NCBI RefSeq assembly: GCF_947494875.1
Contig: NZ_CANLWM010000002.1
Location: 186,001-250,000, forward strand
DNA length: 64,000 nucleotides
DNA from: an uncultured Williamsia sp.
Lineage (GTDB): Bacteria; Actinomycetota; Actinomycetes; Mycobacteriales; Mycobacteriaceae
Reading direction: 5' to 3'
Below, piece after piece: positions 39,296-46,460 of the stretch. How positions within the stretch are numbered: position 1 is the first letter of the stretch; each line of letters opens with the position of its first letter. The notes below the pieces were generated by a model that did not search any database, was not told the DNA's origin, and saw only the letters and a list, made by a program, of their open reading frames with translations. The position numbers and the translations under genes were made by a program.

Positions 39296-40051
39296 ATGCC
39301 TTCTCACGCCCTCATGTCCCTGCGCAGGGCGGTCGTCGCCGGCTCGCTCGCCGTGTCGATGGCTGTCGGCGGCGCCGCACTGGCCGCGCCGGCGTCGGCC
39401 GACCCGGCCACCGCGCCCGAGGCAGCGGCCACGGCCGCACTGGGCTCGCCCACGCTCTCCGCCACCTCGGGCACCGACGTCCTCGCCCTGCTGGACACGG
39501 CGAACAAGACGTTGCGGAGCCTCGGCATCCAGCCGTTCCTGAACCCGACCGTCGCGTTCAACTGCACCACCCCGACCGCGTCGAACCCGTTGGGGCTCCT
39601 GCCCGCCGCGGGCGGTGCCGTCGCCGGGCCCTGGGCCGCGCCGGGGATCTCGCTGCCGACCATCCCGCTGGTGAACATCGACCCGAACGTGGTGAAGGAC
39701 GGGCAGGTGCTCTACGGGTTCGTCCCCGCCGGCGTCACCAGCGACCCGACCTCGACCGGGATGCAGGTCGCCTGGTTCAACACGGCGACAGGCAAGTTCG
39801 GCATCGGGCAGATGGGCAAGGCCGGGGACACCCTGGTCGACGCCTGGCTCGCGAACGTCCCCGCCTCCCCCATCAAGGACATGGCCGCGAAGACCCTCTC
39901 AGGGATCGTCAACACGATCGCACCGGCGGGGAGCCGTCTGGCACCGGTCACCACCGGCAAGGGCACCGTCCTCTCGGCGGTCTTCGGCACCGTGAACAAC
40001 GGCGGCCGCAGCTGCTTCTTCCTCCCGATGGTGGGCGTCACCAACGCCTGA
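39296..40051 (+). CDS. Secreted Ala/Pro-rich protein paralogue (Rv1158c-like)
   Basis: The 251-residue protein has a Sec signal (MSLRRAVVAGSLAVSMAVGG to ASAD) and shares the domain of the preceding gene: FLNPTVAFNC, then GKGTVLSAVFGTV and SCFFLPMVG. Two conserved cysteines likely form a disulfide. The ATG at 39296 is used; an internal ATG at residue 7 would still leave the signal. The genes are 67 bp apart and probably co-transcribed, ending at a strong hairpin. Confidence 0.78.
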   Translation: MPSHALMSLRRAVVAGSLAVSMAVGGAALAAPASADPATAPEAAATAALGSPTLSATSGTDVLALLDTANKTLRSLGIQPFLNPTVAFNCTTPTASNPLGLLPAAGGAVAGPWAAPGISLPTIPLVNIDPNVVKDGQVLYGFVPAGVTSDPTSTGMQVAWFNTATGKFGIGQMGKAGDTLVDAWLANVPASPIKDMAAKTLSGIVNTIAPAGSRLAPVTTGKGTVLSAVFGTVNNGGRSCFFLPMVGVTNA

Positions 40052-41961: not shown

Positions 41962-42537
41962 ATGGTGACGCTCCGTATCGCGCAGGACCCCGCGGCCGAC
42001 GAGCTGCTCTCGACCGACCCCTTCGCGCTCCTCGCAGGCATGCTCCTCGATCAGCAGTTCCCCATGGAGCGTGCCTTCGCCGGACCGGCGAAGGTCCTCG
42101 AGCGATTCGGGACCCTGGATCCCGCCGAGATCGCCGTCGCCGACCCGGAGCGCTTCGCCGACCTGTGCGCCACCCCGCCGGCGATCCACCGCTACGGCCG
42201 GTCGATGGCCCAGCGCCTGCAGGCACTCGCCTCCGCCGTGGTCGCGGAGTACGACGGCGACACCACACGGATCTGGACCGAGGCGACGTCCGGCAAGGAT
42301 CTCGTCGACCGTGTGAAGGCCCTCCCCGGGTTCGGCGAGCAGAAGGCCAAGATCTTCACCGCACTACTGGCGAAGCAACTCGACGTGAAGCCCCGCGGCT
42401 GGACCACCGCGGTCGGCGACTACGGCAAGAAGGGCTACCGATCCGTCGCCGACGTCGTCGACGAGGAGTCGCTGACCAAGGTCCGCGCGTACAAGAAGCA
42501 GAAGAAGGCCGAGGCCAAGGCCGCCTCCGCCGACTGA
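41962..42537 (+). CDS. HhH-GPD base-excision repair family protein
   Basis: The 191-residue protein belongs to a short actinobacterial HhH-GPD family: LLAGMLLDQQFPMERAF at the N-terminus and the helix-hairpin-helix LPGFGEQKAKIFTALL. Such proteins resemble endonuclease III glycosylases but are shorter, lack the Fe-S cysteines and end in a lysine-rich tail (KKQKKAEAKAA). A role in DNA repair is inferred from family. Confidence 0.85.
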   Translation: MVTLRIAQDPAADELLSTDPFALLAGMLLDQQFPMERAFAGPAKVLERFGTLDPAEIAVADPERFADLCATPPAIHRYGRSMAQRLQALASAVVAEYDGDTTRIWTEATSGKDLVDRVKALPGFGEQKAKIFTALLAKQLDVKPRGWTTAVGDYGKKGYRSVADVVDEESLTKVRAYKKQKKAEAKAASAD

Positions 42538-42617
42538 GCTGCATCCCGCGACGGTCGCCCGACGACGACCACGCAGGTGCGTCTTACGTCACATCCCGAT
42601 GGCATACGCTGTCATCC

Positions 42618-43478
42618 ATGGATGTGAAGGTCGCCGTCGAGCTGCCTCTGCGGATCGGGTTCGCCGCGACGGGTGTCGCACTCGCCGCGGTGGAGTCCGG
42701 AGTCACCATCGCCCGTCTGACCATCGAGAACGTCGCGCACGAGATCAACACCGTGCTCGGCGTCGAGGACGACACGTCGTTCTCGGCGCGCACACCGCTG
42801 CAGCTCATCGGCCAGCTCGCCGAACTCCTCGGCCCCGACCGCCCGTTCGGCCGCATCCTCGCCCCCGGCGGTCCGCTGGACCGACTGCTCGCCGACGGCG
42901 GCGTCGTCGACCGCCTCACCGCCCGCGACGGCTCGCTGGAGAAGCTCACCGCCGAGGGCGGACTCCTCGACCAGATGGCGGAGGAGAACGGGATCCTCAT
43001 CCGCCTCACCGCCGCCGGCGGACCGCTCGACCGCCTGTCCCGCAAGGGCGGCGTCATCGACCAGTTCACCGAGAACGAGGGCATCCTCGAGCGCCTCACC
43101 AGCGAGGGCGGCATCGTCGACAAGCTCACCGCGCAGGACGGGCTGCTCAACAAGATGACCGAGGAGGGCGGCATCATCGACCGCCTCGTCGCCGACGGCG
43201 GACTTCTCGACCAGCTCGTCGGCGAGAACGGGGCCGTCGAGCGCGCCATCGCCCCGGGCGGACCCATCGAGCGCATCTCCGAACTCACCGACGTCATCGG
43301 TCAGCTCGCACCGAGCATCGTCGCCATCCAGGAGACCGTCCACGAACTCCGTGACGCCGTCGACGTCCTCAACGACGCCGTCACCCCGCTCGGCGAACTC
43401 GCCGGCCGCCTGCCGAAGCGACTGACCCGTGGAGGCGGTCGCCAGCACGAGATCAACGGCCACTCGCACCACGACTGA
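42618..43478 (+). CDS. Decapeptide-repeat protein of unknown function
   Basis: The 286-residue protein has an ~80-residue alpha-helical N-terminal region (LRIGFAATGVALAAVESG), then residues 81-220 consist of exactly 14 tandem 10-residue units with consensus TAEGGLLDRL, followed by a helical segment with coiled-coil character and a His-rich tail (HEINGHSHHD). Glycine at unit positions 4-5 and Leu/Ile/Val at positions 6, 7 and 10 suggest a regular solenoid or helical-hairpin stack. It is not secreted by any visible signal. An adjacent degenerate unit lies on each side. The gene stands alone. Confidence 0.75.
   Translation: MDVKVAVELPLRIGFAATGVALAAVESGVTIARLTIENVAHEINTVLGVEDDTSFSARTPLQLIGQLAELLGPDRPFGRILAPGGPLDRLLADGGVVDRLTARDGSLEKLTAEGGLLDQMAEENGILIRLTAAGGPLDRLSRKGGVIDQFTENEGILERLTSEGGIVDKLTAQDGLLNKMTEEGGIIDRLVADGGLLDQLVGENGAVERAIAPGGPIERISELTDVIGQLAPSIVAIQETVHELRDAVDVLNDAVTPLGELAGRLPKRLTRGGGRQHEINGHSHHD
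42858..43277 (+). repeat. 14 coding tandem repeats of 30 bp
   Basis: The DNA behind the decapeptide array has an exact 30-bp period over 420 bp, typified by the words GAGGGCGG and CTCGACC. Units have diverged in sequence but no insertion or deletion breaks the period, pointing to selection on protein unit length rather than recent slippage. Confidence 0.85.
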
Positions 43479-43497: not shown

Positions 43498-43528
43498 TTG
43501 ACTTCGAGTGAACTCGAAGTTCGATCCT
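43498..43528 (+). promoter_or_regulatory. MerR-type promoter with perfect dyad ahead of split transketolase
   Basis: A perfect inverted repeat ACTTCGAGT-GA-ACTCGAAGT (43501-43520) lies between a -35 (TTGACT, 43498-43503) and a candidate -10 (GATCCT, 43523-43528), giving the long 19-bp spacer typical of MerR-family activated promoters. The half-sites resemble NmlR/AdhR-type operators (CTTGGAGT..ACTCCAAG). The start codon follows 15 bases after the dyad. No MerR gene is found in the window. Confidence 0.7.
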
Positions 43529-43534
43529 GGTCGC

Positions 43535-44236
43535 ATGACGACGACCACGAGCCCGCCCATCCCGTACACCTACGACGACCTGCCCGCCCTCCTCGCCCGC
43601 ATGACCGGCGACGAGAAGCACGCACCCGCGTCGGCCTCGACGCTCGACGTGCTCTGGGTGCTCCACCACGACGTGCTGCGATCCTCCCCCGATCGCGCCG
43701 ACGACCCCGACCGGGACCGCTTCTTCCTGTCGAAGGGGCAGGGCCCGATGGCCTTCTACGCCGTGCTCGCCGCACACGGCTGGTTTCCCGCGGAGTGGTT
43801 GGACGACTGGATGAGCTGGGACTCACCGCTGGGTGGCCACCCGGATCGCACACTCGTACCCGGCGCCGAGATCAGCGCCGGGTCGCTCGGTCACGGGCTG
43901 CCGATGGCGGTCGGCACCGCGATCGCGCTCCGCGGCCGTGGCAGCGACGCCAATGTCCACGTCCTCGTCGGTGACGCCGAGCTCGACGAGGGGTCGAACG
44001 ACGAGGCCATCGCGTTCGCGGGCGCCCGTCGCCTGGCGAACCTGACGGTCGTCGCGATCGACAACCGGTCCTCCACGTACAACCGGCCGGGGCGTCTGCG
44101 CGAACGCTTCGCCCTCGAGGGCTGGCACGCAGTCGAGATCGACGGTCACGACCACCCCGCGATCCGATCGGCGCTGCTCACCCGGCCGGGGCGCCCCGTG
44201 TTCGTGTCCGCTCGGGTGGAGAGGAAAGACGCATGA
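43535..44236 (+). CDS. Transketolase N-terminal (thiamine diphosphate-binding) subunit
   Basis: The 233-residue product covers the TPP-binding half of transketolase: LSKGQGPMAFYAVLAAHGW, GSLGHGLPMAVGTA, then GDAELDEGSNDEA...DNRSS. The usual GDG of the TPP motif is GDA here. The partner half is a separate gene overlapping by 4 bp (ATGA), so the enzyme is heteromeric. Split transketolases outside the main pentose-phosphate operon often serve special sugar or deoxysugar conversions; the substrate here is unknown. ATG at 43535 is preferred over an in-frame ATG within the palindrome. Confidence 0.88.
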   Translation: MTTTTSPPIPYTYDDLPALLARMTGDEKHAPASASTLDVLWVLHHDVLRSSPDRADDPDRDRFFLSKGQGPMAFYAVLAAHGWFPAEWLDDWMSWDSPLGGHPDRTLVPGAEISAGSLGHGLPMAVGTAIALRGRGSDANVHVLVGDAELDEGSNDEAIAFAGARRLANLTVVAIDNRSSTYNRPGRLRERFALEGWHAVEIDGHDHPAIRSALLTRPGRPVFVSARVERKDA

Positions 44237-45177
44237 GCGACGATCCCCGCACCCGCTTCGCCGAGACCGCACTCGCGCTCGTCGACGACGATCCCGACAC
44301 GACCGTCGTCTACGCCGAGATCGCCGGTCAATGGTTCGGCGACGACGCCGTCACGCGCCCCGACCGCGTCGTGAACGTGGGAATCCGCGAACAACTCCTG
44401 GTCGACGCCGCGGCGGGGATGGCCCTCGCCGGCGCCTTCCCCATCGCCCACACCTTCGCGCCGTTCCTCGTCGAACGCGCCTACGAGCAGGTGAAACTCG
44501 GCTTCGGTCATCAGGACGTCGACGGGCTGCTGGTCTCCACCGGCGGCTCGGTCGACATGGCCTCGATGGGTCGCACCCACCAGACCGACGCCGACGTCGC
44601 CCTCATGTCCGCGGTACCCGGCTTCGCCGTTCACGTGCCCGGTACCGCCGACGAGGTCGAACAGCTCATGCGTCGCGCTCACCGCGTGCGCGGACGCCAC
44701 TACGTCCGCGTCACCGCGCAGCAGAACACCCGCTCGTTCGACGTGGACACGCCAGACCTGCACGTGGCCCGGCCCGGTTCGGGAGCGCTCGTGATGGTCG
44801 CCGTCGGACCGGTTCTCGACGCAACACTCGCGGCGGCCGAGACCATCGCCGACACAACGGATCTCGATCCGACGGTGCTCTACACCGCGACCGTGCGACC
44901 GTTCGACGGCGCCGGCCTCCGCAGGCTGAGCGGACCCGTCCCCGACATCGTGCTCGTCGAGCCCTACCTGGCCGGGACGTCCGGCCACGAGGTGGCCGCT
45001 GCGGTGCGAGATCGCCCGCACCGTCTGCTCGCGCTCGGATTCGGCCGCGAGGAACTGCGGCGCTACGGCACGCCCGAGGACCACATCAGGGCAGCAGGTC
45101 TCGACGCCGACGGCATCACCCGCGCGGTGGCGGACTTCGTGGGTCAGCCCAGTGCGGCGGCCAGCCGGCCGGCGTAG
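44233..45177 (+). CDS. Transketolase C-terminal subunit
   Basis: The 314-residue product has the pyrimidine-binding domain with VVNVGIREQLLVDAAAGMAL (the conserved Glu of TPP activation), GGSVDMASMGRTHQ and the C-terminal transketolase domain. It completes the active site with the preceding subunit. Its ATG overlaps the previous stop. The 3' end runs 34 bp into a convergent acyltransferase gene. Confidence 0.9.
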   Translation: MSDDPRTRFAETALALVDDDPDTTVVYAEIAGQWFGDDAVTRPDRVVNVGIREQLLVDAAAGMALAGAFPIAHTFAPFLVERAYEQVKLGFGHQDVDGLLVSTGGSVDMASMGRTHQTDADVALMSAVPGFAVHVPGTADEVEQLMRRAHRVRGRHYVRVTAQQNTRSFDVDTPDLHVARPGSGALVMVAVGPVLDATLAAAETIADTTDLDPTVLYTATVRPFDGAGLRRLSGPVPDIVLVEPYLAGTSGHEVAAAVRDRPHRLLALGFGREELRRYGTPEDHIRAAGLDADGITRAVADFVGQPSAAASRPA

Positions 45178-46460
45178 CGGTCCGGATCGGGAAGGCCTGT
45201 CGGCGAGGAACACACCGACAGCGCGACGCGCCCACCGATGCCGTGGACCCCGTGCGTCACCGACTGCACGGGCGACAGTGCGGGGAACCCGGCCGTCAGC
45301 ACGACGCGACCACCGCCGAACACGAGGTCGTCGGCGCCGCGGTCGACGCTGGACACCACGGTGTTCCCGACGACCCTCTCGGGCACCGCGTGCGCGTCGA
45401 ACGACCGGACGCCCCACGCGACGAGAACTGCGGGCACCACCGCCGCCGCGGACGCCTCCGCCCGTGCCGCCGGATGGTGACCGCGGCGAGCCATCGCGGC
45501 GAGGTCCTCGGCGATCCGGGCTGCCCGTCGGCGCGGATCGGGCTCGTCGACGGCGAGATCGACGCCGACGGTCCGGAAGTGGTTGCGCGACCGCCGGTCC
45601 CCGACACCGGCGACCAGCACCTCGGCATGCACGAGGGCGGCGTCGACGTGGTCGGCCAGCGCCCTCCCGATGACGGTGAGCGCACCGACTGTGACCGTGC
45701 CGCCCACCGCACGCAGGGTGTCCGTGTCCGTGGTGACCACCCGGAGGTCCCGACGATCGTCCGGGCGCACGTTGACCGGCAGAAGCGGAACCCCGTCCCG
45801 CCCCCGCGGCACCCGGCCCGCCTCCTCGTCACGGACGCGATCGCGATGAGCACGCAGCGCGCGGACGCCCCGCACCGCCAACCCGGTCGCCTGCAGCGGC
45901 ACCCGGGCCACCCCTCCGGCCGCAAGCAGCATCGGAGGTGCCGTGCCGGCGCGCCGGTGCGGCGGGGACGGCAGCGGGGTGTCGTCGAACAGTCGCCGTG
46001 CGAGCTGCGACGCCAGCGTGCCGTCGGCGAGGGCGTGCGCGATCTGCAGCACCGCCACCACCGAGGGGCCACCGGAGCCCGGCGCGTCGTCGACCCCGAC
46101 GAACACGTGCACCCGCCACGGCAGACGTCGGGTGTCCACCGGTACGGACATCAGCTCACCCAGGCGACGCAGGCAGCCCGCCCACCTGTCGACCGCGTGC
46201 AACCGCACGGCGTCGGCGGTGACCGTGGCCGGCGACCACCACGGGCGGTCCAGGCGGCCGGGGACGTCGACGACGCGCACGCTGAGCTCGTCGATCCTGT
46301 TCGCGCGCTGCGGGATCCGCGCGGCCAGGTCGGCAGCGGGAGTCGTGGCACCGTCGAAGACGTAGAGCAGGAACTGGTCGCTGGGGATGACCTCGGACAT
46401 CCACAGCGCCTGGGCGTCGGTCGGCGTGAGCCGCCCCACGATCGAGGGCGTCGGGTGCAC
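45144..46460 (-). CDS. WS/DGAT-like acyltransferase with degenerate active site
   Basis: The 438-residue protein shows the wax-ester synthase/diacylglycerol acyltransferase pattern: N-terminal LTPTDAQALWM, the HHxxxDG region as AHALADG (first His replaced, second kept), and C-terminal VVGNTVVSSVDRGADDLVFGGGRVV plus HGIGGRVALSVCSS typical of the DUF1298 half. Such enzymes esterify acyl-CoA to alcohols or diacylglycerol. Because the second His is the catalytic one, activity is possible. GTG start. Substrate unknown. Confidence 0.72.
   Translation of the reverse strand: MHPTPSIVGRLTPTDAQALWMSEVIPSDQFLLYVFDGATTPAADLAARIPQRANRIDELSVRVVDVPGRLDRPWWSPATVTADAVRLHAVDRWAGCLRRLGELMSVPVDTRRLPWRVHVFVGVDDAPGSGGPSVVAVLQIAHALADGTLASQLARRLFDDTPLPSPPHRRAGTAPPMLLAAGGVARVPLQATGLAVRGVRALRAHRDRVRDEEAGRVPRGRDGVPLLPVNVRPDDRRDLRVVTTDTDTLRAVGGTVTVGALTVIGRALADHVDAALVHAEVLVAGVGDRRSRNHFRTVGVDLAVDEPDPRRRAARIAEDLAAMARRGHHPAARAEASAAAVVPAVLVAWGVRSFDAHAVPERVVGNTVVSSVDRGADDLVFGGGRVVLTAGFPALSPVQSVTHGVHGIGGRVALSVCSSPTGLPDPDRYAGRLAAALG

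Follow-up and report, generated by a model that had tools for sequence, protein, structure and literature searches.

A decapeptide-repeat protein family of Williamsia, Gordonia, and mycobacteria-like relatives with one predicted helix per ten-residue unit

Introduction

Tandem helical repeats are already known in proteins. In the alpha-solenoids, i.e., HEAT, ARM, and TPR repeats, a unit takes up about 34-47 residues and holds at least two helices, and the helices of consecutive units stack in register as one superhelix. Shorter periods belong to other folds. The RTX repeat has a nine-residue period and forms a calcium-binding beta-roll, and the pentapeptide repeat has a five-residue period and forms a beta-helix. 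The perilipin, apolipoprotein, and LEA-type repeats have an eleven-residue period, which lies in one long amphipathic helix.

A second point of comparison is Rv0756c, the gene beside phoP in Mycobacterium tuberculosis. In the ChIP-seq data of PMC4038636, the Rv0756c-phoP region was enriched 21.78-fold for PhoP, and Table 1 of that paper names Rv0756c on one side and phoP on the other side of a single PhoP peak. The RNA ratio given there for Rv0756c between the wild type and the phoP mutant was -1.24, i.e., hardly changed. In the passages found through one open library, no function was stated for Rv0756c.

The gene described here lies in a 64,000-nucleotide stretch of DNA from an uncultured Williamsia sp., called the window below, and coordinates without a locus name refer to it. 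Like the alpha-solenoids, its product carries tandem repeats predicted to be helical and variable in number. Unlike HEAT, ARM, and TPR repeats, the unit would comprise one helix per ten residues. No library used gave a convincing match to such a unit with the consensus of this family.

Gene structure and coding evidence

The repeat gene was located at 42618-43478 on the forward strand. It encodes 286 amino acids plus a stop, and its translation has no internal stops. Against seven orthologues of the same genus, pN/pS was 0.08-0.35, and third codon positions were the most changed in each comparison. Because of these values, the ORF is a real and constrained gene. Antisense and overlapping ORFs were ruled out as the true gene, since the forward frame is conserved in relatives and is under purifying selection. 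In a search of its own genome with E up to 1, the window protein (P0001) matched only itself.

Six parts were recognized along the chain, all on the forward strand. The N-terminal part is a predicted, weakly hydrophobic helix with a near-invariant proline, Pro10 (residues 3-46, 42624-42755, pLDDT 50-68). A pre-repeat helix was predicted by AlphaFold2 at residues 60-70 (42795-42827), and the family-trained matrix described below assigned a degenerate unit, LGPDRPFGRI, to residues 71-80 (42828-42857). The 14 exact decapeptide units occupy residues 81-220 (42858-43277), as seen in the translation, the matrix, and the AlphaFold2 model. The last unit is predicted to run into a long, coiled-coil-like C-terminal helix at residues 216-264 (43263-43409), with pLDDT of about 88-93, lower at its end, and with profile matches in the PDB. 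The tail, basic and then His-rich, covers residues 265-286 (43410-43475) and was modelled with low confidence. The earlier note had pointed out a His-rich tail. It is present in the window protein, but it is a lineage-specific feature, absent from most of the 40 aligned rows.

A -10-like hexamer, TACGCT, was found at 42605-42610 (forward strand), ending 7 nt before the ATG, i.e., at the position of a putative leaderless promoter. The same search was extended to those family genes (144 of 158) that start with ATG and have 60 bases upstream of it, with a distinct sequence there. A TANNNT hexamer ending 6-8 nt before the ATG was present in 125 of the 144, and in shuffled sequences the mean was 7 and the maximum 16. 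These counts suggest a putative leaderless promoter conserved across the family. In some of the 19 misses (e.g., L195, L018, and L151), the hexamer stands further upstream, in front of an earlier ATG, and the start chosen for those genes may be the wrong one. A scan for the sigma-70 consensus with a -35 box also required gave no site in the window.

The ten-residue repeat

The translation and a unit matrix agreed with the earlier note in placing 14 units, each of exactly ten residues, at residues 81-220. With the degenerate unit, the matrix counted 15 units in the window protein. The family proteins that were scored had also served to train the matrix, and shuffling was the control; shuffled family proteins held 0.16 units on average and two at most. 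The consensus given in that note, TAEGGLLDRL, is close to the family consensus [LT]-A-[PE]-[GD]-G-[PLV]-L-[DE]-[RQ]-L. Positions 7, 10, and 1 of the unit are mostly hydrophobic, with threonine also at position 1, and positions 8 and 9 are charged or glutamine.

The period is also visible in the hydropathy of residues 71-220. The autocorrelation was 0.72 at lag 10, 0.73 at lag 20, and 0.71 at lag 30, and it was 0.29, -0.54, and 0.05 at lags 5, 8, and 11. The repeat is old, and in the nucleotide sequence it is weak. The 14 units share 60% identity on average and adjacent units 57%, and Tandem Repeats Finder reported only 4.6 copies of a 30-base period with 63% matches.

Unit number varies among homologues, as the earlier note had proposed to survey. 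From 205 hits, 158 distinct proteins were obtained, and these hold 2082 units, 5-24 per protein. The spacing between units was exactly ten residues in 1878 of 1924 cases, and 24 of the 46 other spacings were of 45 residues. In the alignments, gaps fall mostly on whole units, and the C-terminal helix is conserved, as is Pro10 (in at least 90% of rows). Long arrays, e.g., the 24 units of L012, show repeated blocks of units. There is also a hint of a superperiod, small and inconsistent across groups and the window protein. In three groups (149 of the 158 proteins), similarity at a lag of three units slightly exceeded the expected value (+1.5, +1.4, and +1.8), and in the window protein alone similarity peaked at a lag of five units.

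Comparison with known repeats

None of the libraries searched, i.e., Pfam, NCBIfam, and PHROGs, names the repeat. Placement in a known repeat family by a profile search, one of the outcomes that the earlier note had named as fatal to its claim, was looked for and not found. At E 0.1, the window protein and all 40 members of the profile A1 matched 18 Pfam families, none of them a repeat family. The commonest matches were weak and unrelated, i.e., BAT in 8 of 40 members (best E 0.00067) and Zn_ribbon_Com in 6 of 40 (best E 0.00073). HEAT, ARM, TPR, pentapeptide, and RTX models of Pfam were not matched among the 40 members. NCBIfam, searched with the window protein and five other members, left the repeat unnamed. 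In PHROGs, searched with the window protein only, the best match (E 0.0036, residues 97-253) was to a family of unknown function. A literature search in one open library gave no report of decapeptide or ten-residue helical solenoids among the papers listed.

Three short-period classes were ruled out by period and predicted structure. The RTX nonapeptide was rejected by the period of ten and by the prediction of helix and turn with no strand, and the pentapeptide repeat by the autocorrelation of 0.29 at lag 5 vs. 0.72 at lag 10 and by the predicted helix. The perilipin, apolipoprotein, or LEA-type repeat was rejected by the value of 0.05 at lag 11 and by the break of the predicted helix at each turn from residue 76 to 211.

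Two groups of proteins outside the family resemble the repeat in part. The first is CDHS1_22, a tail fibre of a Clostridioides difficile phage (PDB 7QLR), with weak profile matches (E 0.054 and E 0.24). A protein of the C. difficile phage AR1075-1 (L226, 982-2832) is identical to the 7QLR protein over the 117 residues queried. Two of its segments show a hydropathy period of ten residues (autocorrelation of 0.33 and 0.42 at lag 10), but it contains no family units by the matrix and no Gly pair. The tail fibre is at most an analogue. No paper on the 7QLR structure was among those listed in the literature search, and no phage matched the window protein at E 0.01.

The second group comprises plasmid proteins of Roseobacteraceae, with units of GG or DG plus hydrophobic residues (tblastn E 3e-7 for Sulfitobacter and 3e-4 for Alloyangia). 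For the Sulfitobacter protein the autocorrelation was 0.35 and 0.37 at lags 10 and 20, and for the Alloyangia protein it was only 0.07 at lag 10. However, these proteins are long (1046 and 749 residues), and glycine replaces the charged pair in many of their units. Their units by the matrix are mostly 20, 38, or 40 residues apart, and the N- and C-terminal regions of the family are unmatched in them. The likeness is probably convergent. Two Roseobacteraceae plasmid genes for Gly/Asp-rich repeats (L225, 3134-6274, and L228, 1888-4137) are located two genes from a TolC-family gene.

Predicted structure

In structure prediction the repeats are ordered and helical, neither disordered nor beta. Disorder was the other outcome that the earlier note had named against itself, and it was looked for and not found, with the repeats at a pLDDT of about 90. 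AlphaFold2 with a 106-sequence alignment gave a mean pLDDT of 80.9, with 134 residues at 90 or above. The repeat blocks scored 88-94, and 82 at residues 151-160. Fourteen six-residue helices were predicted at a strict pitch of ten residues from 76 to 211, with turns of four residues between them. The flanks are predicted to be helical, as had been claimed, i.e., with the long C-terminal helix at 216-264, the helix at 60-70, and an N-terminal helix to residue 46 at low confidence. A model made with 40 sequences had a mean pLDDT of 60.6 and nearly identical secondary structure at lower confidence. A fold with one helix per ten-residue unit is thus quite probable. With 106 sequences the pTM was 0.36, so that the relative placement of the helices is uncertain, despite the regular helices at pLDDT of about 90.

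Foldseek found no match to either model in the PDB with E up to 10, and a repetitive query may be masked in such a search. Against viral models, searched with the first model only, nothing was significant (best E 2.2). Profile searches of the PDB returned mostly coiled coils over the C-terminal helix, the best being a designed coiled coil (E 1.8e-06). The N-terminal segment has no clear transmembrane segment. Its 19-residue Kyte-Doolittle maximum is 1.59, and 45 of 158 members reach 1.6. The helical moment of residues 1-36 is very low (0.08-0.11). The one pointer to a membrane, where the earlier note had suggested a scaffold, is the weak hydrophobicity of this segment.

Distribution of the family

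The family is shared by Williamsia, Gordonia, and many mycobacteria-like relatives, and it has no name in the libraries searched. "Mycobacteria-like" is used here as a label for one genus (g29) and rests on its PhoP. Of 401 genomes sampled from the taxonomic family of the window, 265 were matched by the profile A1, and these cover 26 of 31 genera. No A1 match was obtained in the other 136, and the gene is therefore dispensable in some lineages. At E 0.001, the window protein alone matched 30 of 61 genomes, among them its own. The named relatives are Williamsia and Gordonia species, with 16 loci. In the mycobacteria-like genus, A1 matched 57 of 60 genomes, and the family was present in all 53 genomes with at least 90% completeness and at most 5% contamination. 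In an order-wide sample, 49 of 298 genomes matched at E 1e-5, all from the same taxonomic family as the window save three of another family (f2) and two marginal matches (G606 and G638).

Six plasmid records matched, two of Tsukamurella and four of Roseobacteraceae. One Tsukamurella tyrosinosolvens record labelled as a plasmid carries a 19-unit member (L227, 4001-5059), and a second Tsukamurella plasmid record matches too.

Some genomes carry paralogues in other contexts. A paralogue was found between rplA and rplJ in L084 (6809-7525, by scanning of the proteins) and in L093 (6434-6976, by gene clustering), followed by an mlaF-like gene, two yrbE-like genes, and one mce gene. A shorter paralogue is located between glnA and glnE in L102 (6469-7299, by scanning) and in L088 (6850-7773, by clustering).

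Genomic neighbourhood

In the window, a gene for an HhH-GPD base-excision repair protein (TIGR03252 of NCBIfam; 41962-42537, forward strand) ends 80 bp upstream of the repeat gene. A split transketolase follows on the forward strand (43508-45177), i.e., an N-terminal PF00456 gene and a C-terminal PF02779/PF02780 gene with an overlap of 4 bp. A convergent gene at 45144-46460 (reverse strand) was assigned to the WS/DGAT (wax ester/TAG synthase) family by Pfam and NCBIfam. Genes of the context loci were picked by codon bias. Both halves of the transketolase were found in the window and in five of 51 other context loci. An Rv1157c-like protein (39296-40051, forward strand) recurs upstream in 21 of the 52 context loci when the window is counted; its C-terminal match in NCBIfam is weak and below the cut-off.

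Neighbours were surveyed for 72 family genes, in chosen loci longer than 6 kb with the window excluded, and many of the flanks were only about 3 kb. In 21 of the 72, an HhH-GPD gene precedes the family gene on the same strand, and in L099 it is downstream on the opposite strand. A WS/DGAT gene was present in the flanks of 19, always on the opposite strand, and an SMR transporter just upstream in 11. In 35, PhoP and PhoR genes precede the family gene on the opposite strand, at distances of up to about 5 kb. Of these 35 loci, 22 had the gene midpoints within 1 kb, and one holds a tandem copy 5 kb away.

The PhoP arrangement is usual in the mycobacteria-like genus. In 18 of its 20 chosen loci (19 genomes), the gene is divergent from phoP within 1 kb, with PhoP assigned by PDB match, and thus shares the position of Rv0756c. 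In M. tuberculosis, phoR and a HIT gene lie beyond phoP; divergence from phoP with this order beyond it was used as the mark of the Rv0756c group, and 18 of the 20 loci agreed with it. The two exceptions are L213, with only the HIT gene in its stretch, and L223, a second copy without the six neighbours. The neighbouring regulator matched M. tuberculosis PhoP in the PDB with 474 bits (L097), and with 393 bits in a locus of another genus (L105). From gene position, the family gene is the putative orthologue of Rv0756c. The PhoP-divergent arrangement is absent from the window and the other Williamsia and Gordonia loci, and the gene is placed beside HhH-GPD there.

Function from an operon was considered and dropped, as the HhH-GPD, WS/DGAT, phoPR, SMR transporter, ribosomal/mce, and glnA/glnE contexts are each not family-wide. 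No context is common to the whole family, and therefore no function was assigned from neighbours.

Possible roles of the protein

The favoured but tentative reading of the whole chain is a cytoplasmic rod of helical repeats, which would dock on a membrane, pair by its coiled coil, and act as a spacer or scaffold. Each ten-residue unit would form a single amphipathic helix of six residues that ends in a Gly-rich turn; to our knowledge, this would be the smallest exact helical repeat. Contacts between the helices may be made by positions 7, 10, and 1 and yield a continuous rod, with a ladder of Asp/Glu-8 and Arg/Gln/Lys-9 on its outside. The weakly hydrophobic N-terminal helix could dock on the cytoplasmic side of the plasma membrane and hold the rod there, and the 49-residue C-terminal helix could pair as a coiled coil. 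The length of such a spacer or scaffold would evolve by gain and loss of whole units. A wider claim, somewhat more doubtful than the rod itself, is that the repeats constitute a new class of helical solenoid and that the protein belongs to the core components of the cells of Williamsia, Gordonia, and mycobacteria-like relatives, serving as a length-tunable intracellular membrane ruler or scaffold.

The main alternative, which we regard as unlikely, is a coat on a lipid surface. The amphipathic helices would lie side by side and unstacked on a membrane or a neutral-lipid inclusion, in the manner of perilipin, apolipoprotein, or phasin proteins. The short amphipathic helix predicted for every unit would suit such a coat, as would the weakly hydrophobic N-terminal segment and the WS/DGAT gene near the repeat gene in the window and in the flanks of 19 of 72 family genes. 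However, that gene always stands on the opposite strand and only in loci of the HhH-GPD type, and it was found in none of the 35 PhoP loci within the flanks covered. Perilipin-type repeats have a period of eleven vs. ten here, and the predicted helix is interrupted by a Gly turn in almost every unit. Phasin was also not among the 18 Pfam families matched by the 40 members.

The rod would be placed inside the cell. An exported cell-envelope protein, whose repeats would form a stalk or an adhesive rod on the outer side of the membrane, is improbable. The long Roseobacteraceae plasmid proteins near a TolC-family gene, with similar repeats of Gly or Asp-Gly plus hydrophobic residues, are consistent with export, and so is the weakly hydrophobic N-terminus. 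However, no cleavable signal was seen by eye, proline, arginine, and glutamate are majority residues in the middle of the N-terminal segment, and no surface-protein domain was present among the Pfam matches. Least probable of all is an accessory of the PhoPR two-component system that binds or modulates the neighbouring PhoP or PhoR. It would be favoured by the PhoP gene, identified by PDB match, which stands upstream and on the opposite strand for 35 of the 72 surveyed genes and within 1 kb in 18 of the 20 mycobacteria-like loci, and by the enrichment given for the Rv0756c-phoP region (PMC4038636). Against it, the Rv0756c RNA given there is hardly altered in the phoP mutant, and Williamsia and Gordonia keep the sequence and repeat number with the gene beside HhH-GPD.

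Implications

The family is conserved and has no convincing counterpart in Pfam, NCBIfam, or the PDB. It is present in every good-quality genome examined of the mycobacteria-like genus (53/53), and in that genus the gene usually adjoins a well-studied regulator. If the decapeptides pack as predicted, they would form an unusually small and regular helical repeat, which would be useful for protein design. The family would then also be a system for asking how repeat number sets length.
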